This document shows, piece by piece, positions 22,616 to 32,574 of a stretch of DNA of 64,000 nucleotides; positions within the stretch are counted from its first letter, which is position 1, and each line of letters opens with the position of its first letter. The position numbers were made by a program, and so were the translations under genes. Below the pieces are notes generated by a model, which was given only the letters and a program-made list of their open reading frames with translations, searched no databases and was not told where the DNA came from. Source of the DNA: Methanofollis fontis (GTDB lineage Archaea; Halobacteriota; Methanomicrobia; Methanomicrobiales; Methanofollaceae); NCBI RefSeq assembly GCF_004297185.1, contig NZ_PGCL01000001.1, positions 186,001 to 250,000 of the forward strand. The letters are read 5' to 3'.

Positions 22616-23602
22616 TCAGGTCTCCGTGATCGTCTCGCCGACGGCCATCCCGAAGTGGCGGCCCTTCTCCATCGAGACCCCCAGCACCCGGTCCCCGACC
22701 GATAGTGCGGCCACCGAGAGCGGCCCGGACTCGCCCATCAGCCTGACAGTCTCGGCGTTCTGGAGCACCAGCCCGGCCTTCGCACCGCCGCTCTCGGCCT
22801 CGACCAGCAGCAGGGGACGGCGTTCGATCTTCACCCGACCGACCGCCGCCGTCTCCCCGGTGCCGTCGGCACCGATCACCAGCACGCTGTTGCCCGCCCG
22901 CACCTCGGAGAGATAAGAGGTCCGCCCGTCCGGGCCGAGCAGGTAGGCGTGGACCGCCCCGGCGTTCACCCGGAACGGGCGGGGGGCGACATAGGGGTTC
23001 TCGGCCGTCTCGGCAAGCACGAGCAGGAACCCGGATGAGGTGTTGCCGACGAGCATCCCCTCCCCTTCGGCCAGGAGGGAGCAGGTATCGATGCACGCCC
23101 GGTCGCCCATGCCGACCGGCACAATCCTGGTGACGGTGAAGGGGGCCAGAGCGTATCGCCCTCCCACATCCCGCAGGACGGCGGCGACCTCCCCGATCTG
23201 CAGGGGATCGGCGGTCCTGAGCAGCACCCCGGCAACACCCCGCTCCAGGATGCCGAGGGCGAGCCGCGCCTCATCGGCGTCTGAGACGACGGCGATCACC
23301 CGGTCGGGGAAGGCGGCGACGAGATTTTCAAGGGGGATCACCGTCCAGTCCGTGGTGGAGACGACGAGCAGGGCGTCGCCGGCGTCCGGGAGGGGCGAAT
23401 CCGGCGTCACCTCGGCAAACACAACATCGCGCTCAGGCACCAGGTCACCGTCCGGCGCCACCGTAGCGATCCGCCCGAGGGCGCGGGCATCGGCGGCACG
23501 GTCCGCCACCAGGGCATCGGCCCCTGCCTCGATCGCCGCCGTGGCGATCTCCGTGCTCCAGGGGCGCACGTCCACCCAGAAGCGCTTCGAAGTCCCGGTC
23601 AT
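22616..23602 (-). CDS. aroB': 3-dehydroquinate synthase II
   Basis: 328 aa archaeal enzyme unrelated to bacterial AroB. It starts KRFWVDVRPW and contains DWTVIPLENLVA, VPVGMGDRACIDTC, GMLVGNTSSGF and RPFRVNAGAVHAY, typical of DHQ synthase II. It uses NAD+ for oxidative deamination and cyclisation of 2-amino-3,7-dideoxy-D-threo-hept-6-ulosonate to 3-dehydroquinate. The start at 23602 overlaps the upstream stop (ATGA), which confirms it over the longer open frame. Confidence 0.95.
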   Translation of the reverse strand: MTGTSKRFWVDVRPWSTEIATAAIEAGADALVADRAADARALGRIATVAPDGDLVPERDVVFAEVTPDSPLPDAGDALLVVSTTDWTVIPLENLVAAFPDRVIAVVSDADEARLALGILERGVAGVLLRTADPLQIGEVAAVLRDVGGRYALAPFTVTRIVPVGMGDRACIDTCSLLAEGEGMLVGNTSSGFLLVLAETAENPYVAPRPFRVNAGAVHAYLLGPDGRTSYLSEVRAGNSVLVIGADGTGETAAVGRVKIERRPLLLVEAESGGAKAGLVLQNAETVRLMGESGPLSVAALSVGDRVLGVSMEKGRHFGMAVGETITET

Positions 23603-24381
23603 GCCTCCTCCAGCGCCCGGGCGGGATCGGTCTTCTCGTGGACGACGGCGCAGAGGGCGCGGACGAACAAACGGGGGTCCTCCCGCTGGAAGGCGTTCCT
23701 CCCGATGCAGACACCCGCCGCACCGGCCGAAACGGCATCCCTGATGGCGTTCAGGGTGGCGAGATCGCCCGCCTTTTCCCCGCCGGCGATGAGCACCGGC
23801 ACCGAGCATGCAGCGCAGATCTCGGCGAACGACGCCGGATCGCCGGTGTAGTTCGTCTTGATCAGGTCGGCCCCGATCTCCTCGGCCACCCGCACGCAGT
23901 GACCGACGGCCACCGGAGAGCGCGGGTCGATGCCGGTGCCCCGCGGGTAGATCATGATCAGGAGCGGCATGCCCCGGCGGGTGCACTCCCGAGAGACCTC
24001 GCCGGCGGCCTCGATCATCCGCGACTCGTTGGGCGCCCCCAGGTTGATGTGGATCGAGACGGCATCAGCACCCAGGGCGACCGCCTCCTCCACGGTGCAG
24101 ACGAGCACCTTGTCGTCCGGGTCCGGGTTGAGGGAGGTGGAGGCCGAGAGATGGACGATGAGCCCGATATCCCGCCCGCTCCCGCGGTGACCCGCCTTCA
24201 CCATGCCCTTGTGCATGACGATGGCGTTCGCCCCCCCATCGGAAACGGCGGCCACCGCCTCGGGCATTCTCCGGAGTCCCTCGATCTGCCCCAGAGTGAA
24301 GCCATGGTCCATCGGGACGATGACCGTCCTGCCCGTATTCCGGTCCATGATCCGTTCCAGTCTGATCGCCTTGCCGATCAT
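23599..24381 (-). CDS. ADH synthase/class I aldolase family protein, paralog 2
   Basis: 260 aa TIM-barrel aldolase. It shares PMDHG, HLSAST, MIYPRG and the Schiff-base Lys in [10 protein letters not shown] with archaeal 2-amino-3,7-dideoxy-D-threo-hept-6-ulosonate synthase (transaldolase condensing L-aspartate semialdehyde with 6-deoxy-5-ketofructose-1-phosphate). It lies in tandem with a close paralog and all catalytic positions are kept in both. One copy may make the deoxyketofructose phosphate precursor while the other makes ADH, or both may be ADH synthases. ATGA overlaps on both sides. Confidence 0.85.
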
Positions 24382-25166
24382 TTCACCATCTCCAGTGCCT
24401 CTTCCGCCGTCCGCCCCCCGTGCACGATCGCCGCCGCCGCCCGAAGGAAGCGGTCGGGGTGCCGGTGCTGGAAGGCATTGCGCCCGATGGATAGGCCGGC
24501 GGCACCCCCCTCCATCGCCCCTTCGATGAGCTGGAGCGTCGAGAGGTCTTCGGTCTTCGATCCGCCGGCCACGACCACCGGCACCGGGCATCCCCGCGTC
24601 ACCTCACGGAACGAGTCCGGGTCGCCGGTGTAGACAGTCTTGATGATGTCGGCCCCGAGTTCGGCACCGGCGCGGGCGGCGAGGCAGACCGCCTCTACAT
24701 CCTTCTCGTCCGGGATCTTCGCACCGCGGGGGTACATCATCGCAAGCAGGGGCATCCCCCAGTCCATGCACTCCACCGCCACCTGCCCGAGATCCTCGAG
24801 CATCCGGGCCTCCGAACCGGCGCCGATGTTGATATGCACCGAAACGGCGTCGGCCCCCATCTTGAGGGCGTTGGTGACGGTGTTCACGATCACTTTCTCG
24901 TTCGGGTCCGGCCCGAGGGTCGTGGAGGCCGAGAGGTGGAGGATGAGCCCGATGTCCCGCCCGCTCTGCCGGTGGCCGTAGAGGGCGAGTCCGAGATGAC
25001 CGAGCACGGCGTTCGCTCCCCCGTCGGCAACCGCATCCACCGTCCGTCCCATGTCGATGAGCCCGGGCATGGGCCCTGCCGTCACACCGTGATCCATCGG
25101 TACGATGATCGTCTTTCCGGTGTTCCGGTCCATGATACGTTCCATCCTGATCTGTTTTCCTCTCAT
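24378..25166 (-). CDS. ADH synthase/class I aldolase family protein, paralog 1 (first gene of aromatic operon)
   Basis: 262 aa, closely similar to the next gene: PMDHG, HLSAST, MMYPRG and Schiff-base Lys in [10 protein letters not shown]. It probably catalyses the committed first step of the archaeal shikimate route. The ATG at 25166 has GGGGAGGAG eight to nine bases upstream; the Shine-Dalgarno overlaps the 3' arm of a hairpin (25178-25203). Upstream lie a Phe/Tyr-rich mini-ORF and a second mini-ORF, described separately, which may regulate this gene and hence the operon. Confidence 0.87.
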
Positions 25167-25177
25167 GATCAACTCCT

Positions 25178-26396: not shown

Positions 26397-28145
26397 TTAC
26401 TTCACGGTCGTGCCCCGGAAGGAACGGTTATGGTTCACCGCCTCCGGATCGACCCCGTAGAAGCGGCGGTAGAACGCCCGCTCCTCCTCATCCAGGTCGA
26501 AGGCGCAGTGATCGGGGTGGAGAGTGGCGGCGAGCGCCATCAGCCCGAGCACCCAGCGTGGACTGCCGAAATCCCATCCCGGCGGCATCGTATACACGGC
26601 ACCGGTGCGGACAGCATCCACGATCAGACCCCCCTCATGGCAGAACCGCAGGTAATCCTCGGCAGGAGCGGAGAGGAATCCGGAGACGATGATCACCTCC
26701 GGGTTCAGGGCGAGGAACTCCTCGGACGAGATGTTCACGCCCGGTTTTCCCTTCCTGGGGATCTGCCGGTTGACCACCGTCGCCCCGGCGGTCCCGGCAA
26801 GACAGACCTCGAACCTCCCGGCGTTCAGGGCGAACAGCGGGGTGCCCATCGAATAATAGAGACGGGGCCGGCGGTCGGATCCGGCCACGGCCACCATCAC
26901 CTGCTCCGTGCGATCAGAAAGCCATGCATGGAGCGCCGCCGCCTCCTCCTGCCTGCCGGCCCTGGCCCCGATATCATCCACAAGTCCCAGATAGCCGTCG
27001 ATCGTCTGGATGCGGTCGTGCATTCCGCCGATAAAATTCTCGTTCACGATCCCCGACCAGAACCCCTGCAGGGCAGCGCCGTCGCCGGCGCCCAGGCAGG
27101 CAAGGATCGCCCGCACCATCTCGAACGCCCGCGTGGTGCGGTAACCACCGAGCAGACCGGGCTCGTCGAAGCACTCCGTCCCGATGGCGCCGCGGACCGG
27201 GAGGCGCTCCCCGCAGGAGCAGACCGGGCTGGAGCGTGCCCACACTGTCCTGGCCCCCATCGGCCCATAAAACTCCCGCCCGATGATCCGCTCGCCGCAG
27301 CGCGGGCAGAGGGTGTCGAGACAGGGCGTCCCGGGCGAGTTGAAGAGATAGACGAACGGCAGGATCTCCCGCGCCCGCCGGCAGAGGTCCTCCGATTCCA
27401 GGACCGTGGGTTCGTCACCGGCGCATGCATCGCCGAAGGGCACAAACCGCATCACCTGCAGGGGGATCTCGGGAGAGATGCCGACAAGCCGACGCGCCGC
27501 ACCGAGCACCTCCTCCTCGCCGCCGCGGAGGTACATGACCGAGGCCTCGACATGCACACCGGCGGCGGCACAGAGCCCGATGTTCCTGAAGACCGGGGCC
27601 GCATGCGCCGCCCCGCAGGCGCGGTAGCGCCCGTCCGAGACCCCCTTCAGCCCCACATTCATATAGTCCAGATGGGGGATGAGGGCGTTGAGCGCCTCCT
27701 CCGTAAAATACCCGTTCGTCGAGCACCCCACCGAGAGTCCGGCCTCCTGCGCCGCACGGGCGAGTCTGAGAAAGGTGGGGAACGAGGCGGCGGGTTCGTT
27801 GAGGCAGAACACGATCCCCGAGCACCCCTCCGCCTCCGCCCGTTCAACCATCCCGGCAGGCGATCGGTGCCTGAGGGCGCCGGCGATTCCGTCCGGGTCC
27901 CCGATCAACACCTCGGAGATGCACCCCGGACAGGAGAAGGTGCAGCCGACCGTGCTCACCTGGAGCACCTTTGCCCGCGGGGAGTAGTGGAGGACCGGCA
28001 CCGTCTCGATCGAGACCGGCATCACGGTGAGATAGGCGTCCGGGTGGCGCTCGACGAACTCGCCACCCCTCACGGTATACATCCGGCAGATGCCGGTGCT
28101 GCCCTCAGGGATGGTGCAGCCCTGCTCGCAGATCCGGCACTTCAT
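26397..28145 (-). CDS. Radical SAM enzyme fused to a periplasmic-binding-protein-like domain
   Basis: 582 aa. Residues 1-20 hold a cysteine knuckle (C3, C6, C10, C20, with IPEGSTGIC) like that of AmmeMemoRadiSam/PflA-type activases. The radical SAM CxxxCxxC is C68-C72-C75. A zinc-ribbon-like pair (CPRCGER, CSCGER) lies near 275-315. From about residue 335 to the end the sequence resembles FepB/BtuF-type substrate-binding proteins: ISSEEFLALNPEVIIVSG, a GAVYTMPPGW strand and the terminal pattern VLGLMALAATLHPDH...FYRRFYG. There is no signal peptide, so the binding domain must act in the cytoplasm. It overlaps the methyltransferase gene by 4 bp (ATGA). Substrate is unknown; a cofactor, tetrapyrrole or metal chelate is a reasonable guess. 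Confidence 0.8.
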   Translation of the reverse strand: MKCRICEQGCTIPEGSTGICRMYTVRGGEFVERHPDAYLTVMPVSIETVPVLHYSPRAKVLQVSTVGCTFSCPGCISEVLIGDPDGIAGALRHRSPAGMVERAEAEGCSGIVFCLNEPAASFPTFLRLARAAQEAGLSVGCSTNGYFTEEALNALIPHLDYMNVGLKGVSDGRYRACGAAHAAPVFRNIGLCAAAGVHVEASVMYLRGGEEEVLGAARRLVGISPEIPLQVMRFVPFGDACAGDEPTVLESEDLCRRAREILPFVYLFNSPGTPCLDTLCPRCGERIIGREFYGPMGARTVWARSSPVCSCGERLPVRGAIGTECFDEPGLLGGYRTTRAFEMVRAILACLGAGDGAALQGFWSGIVNENFIGGMHDRIQTIDGYLGLVDDIGARAGRQEEAAALHAWLSDRTEQVMVAVAGSDRRPRLYYSMGTPLFALNAGRFEVCLAGTAGATVVNRQIPRKGKPGVNISSEEFLALNPEVIIVSGFLSAPAEDYLRFCHEGGLIVDAVRTGAVYTMPPGWDFGSPRWVLGLMALAATLHPDHCAFDLDEEERAFYRRFYGVDPEAVNHNRSFRGTTVK

Positions 28146-28789
28146 GCCGACGCCCCCTTCCTCATCACGATCCAGAGGCCGGATTCGTCCCTGACGACAT
28201 CTCCCTCGACGCCCTCCACCCCGGACAATGCCTCCCTGAAGCGCTCCATCGTCTCAGATGAGATGTTCTTCCGGTTGAACTCCCCCCAGTCGGGGTTGCG
28301 GCGGATCATCTCCGGCACGATCCGTCCGTTCAGTTCGGCATTCCCGAACCCGCCGCCGATGATCGCCATCCCTCCATTCTTCAGCACCCGTGCGGCCTCG
28401 CGGAGGGCGGCAGGAAGGTCCTCCCAGAAGAACACCGAACCGCGGCTGACCACGAGATCGGCGGAGGCATCCGGGAAGGGAAGGGCAGCAACGTTCCCCG
28501 GGACCGTCCGCACGCGTCCCTCCAGGCCCGCTTCCTGGATGTTATTCTCCGCGATCGCCTGTGCCGACGCCGAGATGTCGAGGGACCACACCTCCATCTC
28601 AGATGCCGTTGCGACAGCGATCGCCAGATGACCGGGACCGCTCCCCAGATCAATGCAGACGCCGTCCCGCCGACCGAAATGCTCGAAAAAATATTCCGCG
28701 AGCACCGGATAGATCGGGGCGAAGATCGTCCGCGCAATTCGGTCCATTCCCTCTGCTTTTTCCTGTTCGGAACGTGTATCCTGTTTCAT
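28142..28789 (-). CDS. SAM-dependent class I methyltransferase
   Basis: 215 aa Rossmann-type methyltransferase: motif I CIDLGSGPGHLAIA, acidic end of the second strand in VWSLDIS, and motif IV-like SADLVVSRGSVFFWEDLPAALREAARVLKNGG, as in the UbiE/type 11 family. GGAGGTGA lies six to seven bases before the ATG, one of the strongest Shine-Dalgarnos in the window. It is translationally coupled to the radical SAM-binding-protein fusion downstream, so both probably modify the same small molecule. It is divergent from the Mch-like gene. Confidence 0.85.
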   Translation of the reverse strand: MKQDTRSEQEKAEGMDRIARTIFAPIYPVLAEYFFEHFGRRDGVCIDLGSGPGHLAIAVATASEMEVWSLDISASAQAIAENNIQEAGLEGRVRTVPGNVAALPFPDASADLVVSRGSVFFWEDLPAALREAARVLKNGGMAIIGGGFGNAELNGRIVPEMIRRNPDWGEFNRKNISSETMERFREALSGVEGVEGDVVRDESGLWIVMRKGASA

Positions 28790-28938
28790 AGTGTCACCTC
28801 CGGCATACCGCCGTGGGATGGGCAGGGCCCCCCTCCTTCATCTCTCTCTGGCGGGACGGAGGATGAAGATAGCGATTGACACATCGCCCATGGAAACGAC
28901 ATCCCATTACCTCCGGAGGTCGGTCGTGCGGCCCACAA

Positions 28939-28949
28939 CACTATATATC
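28939..28949 (+). promoter_or_regulatory. TATA box of the Mch-like gene
   Basis: CACTATATATC centred about 25 bp before the ATG at 28969, consistent with leaderless initiation there rather than at the ATG six bases earlier. Confidence 0.5.
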
Positions 28950-28968
28950 TGGAGGGAAAGGGATGCCC

Positions 28969-29913
28969 ATGGCTGGTCTGAACGAGGGGGCCCTCCCGAT
29001 GGTGAAGGAGATGACCGAACGTGCCGCATTGCTCGGCATCAGGGCCGGGAGGATGAAAGGAGGGGCCATGCTCATCGACTGCGGGAGCGGGCGGGAGGTC
29101 ACCGGGAGTTATGAGGCGGGATGCCGGACGGTAGAGGCGGCATGCGGAGGATGCGCCCGGGCATGGACAGGGATCGGCGCCATCGGCCCCTATACTCTGC
29201 CTATCCTTCAGATGAACATCGCATCCCCTGCAGACGCCTGCCTTGGCGCACTGCTCCCCCTCTGGAAGGTGCGGGCTGGAGGAGAGGCGGTGTCGGCATC
29301 AGGGCCAGGACGCGCCCTCGCCCGCCGCCCCCCCCGGATCTATCAGATGATCGAGATGGACGAACAGGCAGACGACGCCGTCGTCTGCCTGGATGCCGGA
29401 TGGTTCCCTGACGACGACGAGGCAGGACGGATTGCTGAGGCATGCGGCGTCGGGGTAGACCGCCTCACCATCATTCTTGCTCCCGCTTCAGGGATCGCCG
29501 GGGCGGTGATGAACGCAGCCCTTGTCGCCGGGACGACCGTGGCCCGGTTGATAAAATACGGCTACGAGTCCGATCGCATTCTCCACGCCTCCCTGCGGGT
29601 GCCGGTTCCCCCCCCCTCTCTGGACGCCGAACGGGTCCGGGACGCTGCATGCCTCGGCGGCACTGTCTCCGGCACCATCCATCTTGTGGTTGCAGGCTAT
29701 GACGATGCTATTGCCGGGTGTGTGAGCGGCAGGTGCTCCTGGACCGCCTCCAGGGACACCCGCCTCACCGCACCGGTGGCCGAACTGACCGTCACCGACA
29801 GCAGAGACGGCAGCGTCCGGCGGTTCGGGGCCTGTGATCCAGGAAAAGCCCTCGAACACTTCGGGATCAGGCGCCGGAGCGTCCGGCCCGACCGGATCAC
29901 CGCCATCCGCTGA
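28969..29913 (+). CDS. Divergent methenyl-tetrahydromethanopterin cyclohydrolase (Mch) homologue
   Basis: 314 aa, the length of Mch. The start MAGLNEGALP aligns with the Mch N-terminus, AMLIDCGS with its IDCG strand, SGPGRALA with the conserved SGPARAL loop, IEMDEQADDAV with the conserved GYEDDAD strand and APASGIAGAV with the APT-S--GS segment. Many normally strict Mch positions are changed, including the region that is usually API-PI. A second, canonical Mch would be expected elsewhere in the genome. The TATA spacing supports the ATG at 28969. GGAGGG also lies before an alternative ATG at 28963. It may act on a modified pterin, or be non-catalytic. Confidence 0.7.
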   Translation: MAGLNEGALPMVKEMTERAALLGIRAGRMKGGAMLIDCGSGREVTGSYEAGCRTVEAACGGCARAWTGIGAIGPYTLPILQMNIASPADACLGALLPLWKVRAGGEAVSASGPGRALARRPPRIYQMIEMDEQADDAVVCLDAGWFPDDDEAGRIAEACGVGVDRLTIILAPASGIAGAVMNAALVAGTTVARLIKYGYESDRILHASLRVPVPPPSLDAERVRDAACLGGTVSGTIHLVVAGYDDAIAGCVSGRCSWTASRDTRLTAPVAELTVTDSRDGSVRRFGACDPGKALEHFGIRRRSVRPDRITAIR

Positions 29914-30579: not shown

Positions 30580-32574
30580 ATGACAGCACACCATGAAAAA
30601 ATCGAAACAGTATTCCAGAGAGCACTTGACGGCGATTATTCGGCCCGATGCAGCATCGACCTTCTGGACGAGGATTTCAAGTCCCTCGGCCGGATGGTGA
30701 ACCAGGTCATCGAAGAGATGCAGAGGCGTGAAGAAGAGCAAAAGGAGGCCGAACGCCTGAAAAAAAGGGCTGAAGCATTTGTAAAATTCAACCCCCAGGC
30801 AATCGCCGTGCTCGCTTCGGACAAGCACCGCCTCGACCTCAACAAGGAATACGAGCGTGTCTGGCGCGGAACCTACGACGAACTGATGGCCAAAAAACTC
30901 TACGACTTCAATATCAAGACCTCGGGAGACGACTTCTACGCCTCTTTCGAGACGAAAAAGATGGCAATCTCTGATCTGGAGATCGCATGGGAGGACGGCA
31001 CTACCACCTACCTCCGCCTCTTCCAGGTGCCCATCCTTGATGACGACGGCGAGATCGACGTCAACTACTACATCTACCAGGATCTCACCGAGCAGAAGCA
31101 GGAGCTGAAGGAGATCCAGGCACTGCAGCGCCGTGCAGACGCCTTCCTGAAGTACAACCCACAGGCGATCACGGTGCTCGCAGCGGACAAGCACCGCCTC
31201 GACCTTAACAAGGAGTACGAGCGTGTCTGGCGCGGAACCTACGACGAACTGATGGCCAAAAAACTCTACGACTTCAATATCAAGACCTCGGGAGACGACT
31301 TCTACGCCTCCTTCGAGACAAAGCAGATGGCGATCTCGGATATGGAGGTCGCATGGGAGGATAACACGACCTCCTACCTCCGCCTCTTCCAGGTGCCCAT
31401 CCTCGACGAAGACGGCGAGATCGACGTCAACTACTACATCTACCAGGACAACACCGTCCTGGTTGAGAAGGAGAAGGAGGCACAGGAAAAGGGCGCCCTT
31501 CTCGCCGCCAGCGCCGAAGAGCTGAAGAGGGCGATGGACGAGATGGCAACCGGCGATCTCACCGCCTTCGTGGAGATCAGGGACGACGACCCCATCCGCG
31601 ACCTCAAGCTCAACTACCGCCATTCGCGCGACAGCATCAAGACGGTGCTCAACGAGATCGCAGCGGTCGGCAACAGGGTCCAGGAGAGCACGCAGGACAC
31701 CAGTCGCAGTGCCGCCGACATCTCGCGGGCGATCGAGGAGGTTGCACAGAAGAGCCAGCAGACCGCCGACAACGCCAAACAGCAGCTCGAGAACCTTGAG
31801 GAGGTCGCCCGCGCCATGTCCGACCTCTCGGCATCGATCGAGGAGATCGCCAGCACGGCACAGGGTGTCCTCGACGGTACAGAGGCCGCCGTTCGGATCG
31901 GTGACGAAGCCGAGGTCATCGGCAGGGAGGCCGCCGTCAAGATGCAGCAGGTCGAAACCATTACGAGGGAGGGCGTCGAGGAATTTTCACGGCTGAAAGA
32001 GGAGATGCAGGAGATCTCCAAGATCGTCAAACTCATCAATGACATCTCCAGCCAGACAAACCTGCTGGCGCTGAACGCCGCCATCGAGGCGGCCAGGGCT
32101 GGCGAGCACGGGCGGGGCTTCGCCGTCGTTGCCGGAGAGGTCAGGAATCTGGCCGGCGAGTCGAAGAACGCCACCAACCATATCGGCGACCTGATCGGCA
32201 GCATCCAGGAGAAGAGCGAGAAGACGGCCCGGGATCTCCAGGCGGCATTCAACGAGATCGAGGCCGGCATTCTCTCGGTCAACCGCACCATCGAGGCCCT
32301 GAACCGGATCATCGGCGCCTCCAAGGAGGCGCACGAGAACGTCACCGAGATCGCACGGGCAACCGACGATCAGGCGACCTCCACCAACCGCGTGATGGAG
32401 AGGATGGAGGTGACCACCAGGATGACCAAGGAGACGATGAACCGGATCGAGGACATGGCCGCCCTCGCCGAAGAAGTCTCGGCATCTGCCGAAGAGGTCG
32501 GCAGCGCCTCAGAGGAGGTCGCAGAGATGGCTGGAGAGATGAAGGAGAGCATTGGACGTTTCAGGCTTGAATAA
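30580..32574 (+). CDS. Soluble methyl-accepting chemotaxis protein with duplicated PAS domains
   Basis: 664 aa without membrane segments. Two PAS domains (about residues 60-180 and 182-302) are nearly identical, the product of a 366-bp tandem duplication. A short HAMP-like linker (MATGDLTAFVEI) and a long coiled-coil signalling domain follow, with the canonical hairpin ISSQTNLLALNAAIEAARAGE and glutamate-rich methylation-like helices. It senses a cytoplasmic or freely diffusing signal and controls CheA through CheW, the next gene, whose Shine-Dalgarno overlaps this stop codon. Confidence 0.93.
   Translation: MTAHHEKIETVFQRALDGDYSARCSIDLLDEDFKSLGRMVNQVIEEMQRREEEQKEAERLKKRAEAFVKFNPQAIAVLASDKHRLDLNKEYERVWRGTYDELMAKKLYDFNIKTSGDDFYASFETKKMAISDLEIAWEDGTTTYLRLFQVPILDDDGEIDVNYYIYQDLTEQKQELKEIQALQRRADAFLKYNPQAITVLAADKHRLDLNKEYERVWRGTYDELMAKKLYDFNIKTSGDDFYASFETKQMAISDMEVAWEDNTTSYLRLFQVPILDEDGEIDVNYYIYQDNTVLVEKEKEAQEKGALLAASAEELKRAMDEMATGDLTAFVEIRDDDPIRDLKLNYRHSRDSIKTVLNEIAAVGNRVQESTQDTSRSAADISRAIEEVAQKSQQTADNAKQQLENLEEVARAMSDLSASIEEIASTAQGVLDGTEAAVRIGDEAEVIGREAAVKMQQVETITREGVEEFSRLKEEMQEISKIVKLINDISSQTNLLALNAAIEAARAGEHGRGFAVVAGEVRNLAGESKNATNHIGDLIGSIQEKSEKTARDLQAAFNEIEAGILSVNRTIEALNRIIGASKEAHENVTEIARATDDQATSTNRVMERMEVTTRMTKETMNRIEDMAALAEEVSASAEEVGSASEEVAEMAGEMKESIGRFRLE
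30763..31494 (+). repeat. 366-bp tandem duplication within chemoreceptor (two PAS units)
   Basis: Two adjacent copies with a period of 366 bp (for example GACAAGCACCGCCTCGACCT at 30820 and 31186). The central part, coding DKHRLDLNKEYERVWRGTYD and the following 35 residues, is almost base-identical, whereas the ends have drifted. This indicates a recent duplication or ongoing gene conversion. Confidence 0.9.

Follow-up and report, generated by a model that had tools for sequence, protein, structure and literature searches.

The genome of the methanogen Methanofollis fontis encodes a protein in which a radical SAM enzyme is joined to a domain resembling the binding proteins of chelate importers, and the locus raises the question of what a transport lobe might do on a radical enzyme. 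Importers and binding proteins of the FecCD/PBP family mostly carry iron and corrinoid complexes, and anaerobes are thought to import molybdenum (Mo) and tungsten (W) as simple oxyanions, through ModABC, TupABC, WtpABC and MolBCA. The gene lies in a window of 64,000 nucleotides, the whole stretch of DNA that was analysed; an original prediction, made from the letters of that window, saw in it a cytosolic radical enzyme whose binding lobe could present a tetrapyrrole or a metal chelate for radical chemistry. We have followed this prediction through family models, structure models, a tree of the fused lobes and the gene neighbourhoods of relatives.

The fusion is real and is encoded on the minus strand (Table 1); a plus-strand frame at 26397-28145 is spurious. 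The protein scores 48.6 bits against Radical_SAM (PF04055), for which the cut-off is 29.5, and with its CxxxCxxC motif it is a member of the superfamily. This motif, the N-terminal cysteine knuckle and the zinc ribbon had all been read correctly: among 30 relatives C68, C72, C75, C280 and C283 are invariant, and C309 and C311 are at least 90% conserved. To judge from its conserved cysteines, the knuckle probably ligates a metal or a cluster. In an AlphaFold2 model of the whole fusion (pLDDT 86.3, pTM 0.86) pyruvate formate-lyase activating enzyme (PFL-AE, 3c8f) is a match for the first half, with a Z score of 18.4 and an rmsd of 2.8 over 223 residues, and QueE and NifB are also among its structural matches. 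The top NCBIfam match is TIGR04337, the radical SAM enzyme of AmmeMemoRadiSam systems (AmrS), which is matched by all 30 relatives. Like AmrS, the fusion has an N-terminal cysteine knuckle followed by a barrel; unlike AmrS, it carries a binding lobe, and it scores 82.5 bits where the equivalog cut-off is 220. None of the neighbours examined is an AMMECR1 or Memo gene, those immediately around the fusion in the window being methyltransferase, Mch-like, Zn-ribbon and DUF6159 genes. The radical SAM enzyme spans residues 1-330 and is of the PFL-AE/AmmeMemo type; family-model searches gave no match to the curated ChuW/HutW/HmuW or HemN/HutW-type families. By eye, the N-terminus (MKCRICEQGC) shows neither a signal peptide nor a lipobox.

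Table 1. Features of the fusion gene and its partner in the window (all coordinates are positions in the window)
Feature	Coordinates	Strand	Remarks
Radical SAM / half binding-protein fusion gene	26397..28145	minus	582 aa; same architecture in 65 non-redundant loci
Four-cysteine knuckle, N-terminal, residues 1-25 (C3, C6, C10, C20)	28071..28145	minus	invariant in 30/30 relatives
Radical SAM barrel, residues 31-295	27261..28055	minus	PF04055; PFL-AE 3c8f Z 18.4, QueE, NifB
CxxxCxxC (SAM-binding 4Fe-4S cluster), residues 68-75	27921..27944	minus	C68-x3-C72-x2-C75, invariant
Zinc-ribbon-like CPxC...CxCG, residues 280-312	27210..27308	minus	cysteine conservation in 30 relatives
Backbone helix and C-terminal lobe, FepB/BtuF/MolA-type, residues 337-573	26427..27137	minus	N-lobe absent; C502 invariant; profile and structure matches
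Class I SAM-dependent methyltransferase	28142..28789	minus	215 aa; directly upstream of fusion, 4-bp ATGA overlap

The second half had been described as about 240 residues of FepB/BtuF type, and here the fold stands while the completeness does not. Taken singly, the protein scores 22.3 bits against Peripla_BP_2 (PF01497), below the cut-off of 27.5 and over profile positions 93-233 of 235 only, and a profile built from 30 fusions matches the solved binding proteins 4pag (E=1.8e-18, chain residues 106-322), 4ovk (1.8e-16), 4hn9 (2.4e-16) and the molybdate-binding MolA 3psa (1.2e-9). AlphaFold2 returns a binding-protein fold both within the whole model and for residues 322-582 modelled alone (pLDDT 88.4, pTM 0.88); the top structure match is 4hn9 (Z 21.3-21.5, rmsd 2.3, 214 residues), with CeuE (Z 19.5), MolA (Z 18.2-18.3) and BtuF (Z 15.3) among the others. 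Since fusion positions from about 364 pair with chain positions from 106 in the profile alignment, the N-terminal lobe of the binding protein is missing, and in the model residues 336-380 form three helices where the N-lobe beta sheet is absent. What the fusion holds is therefore the C-lobe fold and backbone helix of a class III binding protein (PF01497), not both lobes. Within it E446, P468, G469, P482, C502, A511, P529, W531, L533 and G534 are invariant in 30 members. The idea of a binding lobe on a cytosolic radical enzyme is in this form supported, and it has parallels in MoeA-PF12727 and HTH-PBP_like proteins, where a binding-protein-derived domain likewise sits on a cytosolic Mo/W protein; those domains, unlike the fused lobe, are complete, have a ModA-type fold and come without a radical SAM domain.

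Sixty-five non-redundant loci with the same architecture were found in methanogens, syntrophs, sulfate reducers, Geobacter, clostridia and Deferribacteres. Full-length relatives occur among archaea in Methanomicrobiales, Methanosarcinales and Methanolliviera, and among bacteria in Desulfobacteraceae, Syntrophomonas, Desulfotruncus, Pelotomaculum, Clostridium, Seleniivibrio, Geobacter and Desulfovibrio. The recurrence of one junction across both domains in these loci, and the grouping of the fused lobes in the tree, rule out an assembly error or split genes. A branch with 100% SH-aLRT separates all fused lobes from 38 transporter binding-protein sequences, and the tree is thus consistent with a single origin of the fusion. 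Its occurrence is scattered: it is present in 2 of 38 Geobacterales, in 4 of 299 genomes from the phylum of Syntrophomonas and in 9 of 61 from its class. It is therefore an accessory trait; stand-alone radical SAM relatives without a lobe exist as well (L037, L039, L131), which means that the lobe can be dispensed with in some cases. A search of plasmids returned partial matches only, either AmmeMemo-like or to binding proteins. No description of such a radical SAM/half-lobe uptake system was found in the open-licence literature, and the accessible portions of papers on Methanococcus iron-source proteomics and diazotrophy make no mention of one.

The closest companion of the fusion is the methyltransferase, which lies directly upstream in 38 of the 65 loci, with a gap of -31 to +24 bp and commonly the same 4-bp ATGA overlap as in the window. 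The window copy is 43% identical to that of Syntrophomonas and has a solved relative, 3dlc (E=8.6e-64). A RiPP metallophore precursor was considered and rejected for this junction, which is too small for a precursor peptide. Within 9 kb of the fusion a methyltransferase was found in 47 of the 65 loci, a binding protein in 47, an ABC ATPase in 39 and FecCD in 37, counts that come from a simple greedy ORF caller, by which some neighbours may be missed or mis-started. The presence of ABC permease genes, suggested at the outset as a check on homologues, is borne out in many relatives, where they adjoin the fusion and link it to metal-chelate uptake. DUF364/DUF4213 'heavy-metal chelation' proteins recur as neighbours too, and TonB-dependent receptors or plug domains lie nearby in Geobacter, Pelobacter and Desulfobacter, which implies a large chelate. 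In the window, the methyltransferase is the sole system partner alongside the fusion, with no importer gene adjoining. Elsewhere in the same genome (contig C5; L039, 9782-16104) a stand-alone radical SAM paralogue (36% identical) is encoded with a methyltransferase, FecCD and a double binding protein of 774 residues, and a ModA-like gene is about 11 kb away. The paralogous systems L036-L038 have the same make-up, the unusual double binding proteins of the set measuring 736-774 aa.

Which metal is concerned is indicated by riboswitches. In an Rfam scan of thirty bacterial loci (521 kb), the Moco/Tuco element RF01055 was present above gathering score in L101, L102, L104, L127, L128, L130, L131 and L132, and Moco-II in L123; Moco-II elements lie upstream in a Pelobacter. 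RF01055 heads the fusion operon itself in L101/L102, L104, L127 and L132, in the orders FecCD-ATPase-DUF364-PBP-fusion, PBP-fusion-MT, TonB-fusion-PBP and PBP-fusion (PBP, binding protein; MT, methyltransferase). Genomes picked for the presence of the fusion added further cases in G071, G108 and the complete genome G346, whose two copies stand in the orders riboswitch-DUF364-FecCD-ATPase-PBP-MT-fusion and, elsewhere, riboswitch-MT-fusion; the first of these operons adjoins a second riboswitch-led group, ModA-ModB-ATPase, and a FecCD-PBP-FmdE group. Across 20 bacterial genomes, a set that included some genomes in which riboswitches near the fusion had been seen beforehand, a same-strand Moco/Tuco riboswitch lay within 6 kb upstream of 9 of 23 fusions (the near-identical Syntrophomonas loci G061 and G443 being counted separately), against 0.19 expected from riboswitch density (Poisson P ~6e-13, kinship ignored). 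The excess is large even if reduced to about six independent cases. The remaining 14 copies have no riboswitch within 6 kb, several of them being on short contigs. Stem P3 is absent from the riboswitches at Geobacter copies and present in those of Bacillota (Syntrophomonadaceae, G346); as loss of P3 correlates with the tungsten cofactor (Regulski et al. 2008, PMC2408646), both metals may be served.

Gene neighbours point the same way. ModA, ModB (ModAB), MoeA, FmdE and HTH-PBP_like proteins recur around the fusion; of 32 archaeal groups, 6 have ModA or ModB no more than 9 kb away and 4 have ModA itself, against about 0.6 expected, there being two to three such genes per genome. The Mo/W link of the fusion operons is well supported in bacteria. 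RF01055 does not occur in the window itself, and archaea offer no Moco riboswitch; for Methanofollis fontis we infer the link, since its fusion and its methyltransferase are both orthologous to bacterial copies that carry it. BioB-like radical SAM genes with a BATS domain, interleaved with binding-protein genes beside the fusion (L131 5900-9331, L132 4202-5257, L152 4046-4933), add a further orphan radical SAM enzyme to these Mo/W-linked operons, and in two loci (L126 12344-13192, L128 11810-12613) a TrmO_N domain fused to a weak FmdE-like domain is encoded directly downstream of the fusion.

This evidence weighs against the substrates first named for the lobe. Processing of a tetrapyrrole (cobinamide, F430, heme) is the least supported reading and an extremely improbable one: BtuF, IsdE and other heme-binding proteins do share the fold class of the fused lobe in the profile and structure matches, and one Methanoculleus copy has a cob(I)alamin adenosyltransferase-like gene upstream, but the 521 kb of bacterial loci hold no cobalamin riboswitch by Rfam, a HemN/HutW-type family match is absent and corrin genes are not recurrent, the recurring elements being Moco/Tuco riboswitches and Mo/W genes instead. 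It is also highly unlikely that the fusion is an enzyme of iron-siderophore utilisation beside which the Moco riboswitches are incidental; iron chelates are the typical cargo of FecCD and FepB-like families and 4hn9 bears the name iron-complex binding protein, but the riboswitch excess and the Mo/W gene neighbours speak against this reading. Metal release by the fusion, as suggested earlier, may still apply, with Mo/W as the metal indicated.

We propose, at roughly even odds, that the fusion is the cytosolic processing enzyme of a FecCD-type acquisition system for Mo/W complexes, in which the lobe holds the chelate, radical chemistry changes the ligand and the metal is freed. The Mo/W chelate would enter the cell through an ABC importer of FecCD type and its MolA/FepB-like binding proteins, together with TonB receptors in Gram-negatives, and in the cytosol the half lobe would grip it against the radical centre, the radical SAM barrel taking the place of the absent N-lobe. 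A 5'-deoxyadenosyl radical and the partner methyltransferase might then alter or cleave the ligand, the methyltransferase modifying the ligand or the product, and the freed Mo/W could pass to cofactor insertion (MoeA). The substrate, the cooperation of lobe and barrel and the radical reaction are inferred, and chelate release is suggested by analogy with anaerobic heme systems, in which an importer delivers the chelate, a radical SAM enzyme opens the ligand and the metal is released (PMC10404700, PMC10035031). As with ChuW/HutW/HmuW, a radical SAM enzyme is encoded with a chelate importer, and by that analogy it would free metal anaerobically in the cell; unlike them, the fusion belongs to another radical SAM family, has a fused binding lobe and a separate methyltransferase, and its operons are, in bacteria, often under a Moco/Tuco riboswitch rather than iron control. 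The likeness to MolBCA (HI1470-1472), described in the accessible text of PMC4031551 as a molybdate/tungstate importer carrying Mo/W oxyanions, lies in the FecCD-type importer, the FepB-like binding protein and the structural closeness of MolA to the fused lobe; a radical SAM enzyme, a methyltransferase and a fused lobe are not described for MolBCA in that text.

Two further readings keep Mo/W and change the role of the enzyme. The radical SAM enzyme and the methyltransferase could synthesise a small Mo/W metallophore, or mature one, inside the cytosol; the lobe would then hold the product, and the FecCD importer would retrieve the loaded form. Translational coupling of the methyltransferase to the fusion, the extra methyltransferases and second BATS-type radical SAM enzyme of some operons, and the TonB receptors would all suit this, and we nevertheless regard it as unlikely, as no exporter, NRPS or other synthetic gene recurs among the neighbours. 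Alternatively, the radical SAM domain might mature a Mo/W enzyme or another protein in the manner of PFL-AE, gated by the lobe as an intracellular metal sensor or metallochaperone. The barrel is indeed nearest PFL-AE and AmmeMemo-type enzymes, 26 of 30 members show weak similarity to TIGR04317 (the tungsten-oxidoreductase radical SAM maturase), and DVU0951, a MoeA with PF12727, sets a precedent, as a Mo/W protein with a PBP-type domain in the cytosol (PMC10102598); a recurrent target enzyme alongside is absent, the conserved partners being transport genes and the methyltransferase, and this reading seems to us quite unlikely.

If the fusion does process imported Mo/W complexes, it may belong to an undescribed and widespread anaerobic route, a larger claim that we hold tentatively: an organic Mo/W chelate (a molybdophore or tungstophore) would enter by TonB and FecCD importers, the radical SAM enzyme would free the metal, and half lobe and barrel would jointly form the substrate pocket. 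That riboswitches control TonB/FecCD operons in which a radical SAM enzyme and a methyltransferase are encoded suggests that complexed Mo/W is taken up in sulfidic, chelator-rich habitats and that its ligand is processed inside the cell. Methanogens and syntrophs need Mo/W for their formylmethanofuran and formate dehydrogenases, and the system could therefore govern how much metal is available for methane production. An orphan radical SAM family gains a testable substrate class, and in the fusion a lobe of transport origin has been put to new use as part of an enzyme.

Other features of the window were observed around this locus. Transcribed divergently from the methyltransferase-fusion pair is a second, divergent paralogue of Mch (methenyl-H4MPT cyclohydrolase; 28876-29913, plus strand), which matches PF02289 at E=9e-45 and falls below the NCBIfam cut-off; it is 32% identical to the genome's other Mch (G000:C3:511944), and close orthologues (55%) were seen in just two genomes, both from the same genus. 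On the minus strand, at 23599-25172, two tandem DhnA-type aldolase paralogues, identified by eye, lie in an archaeal aromatic amino acid gene cluster, and a chemoreceptor-like protein encoded at 30580-32574 on the plus strand contains two nearly identical tandem PAS-like repeats.
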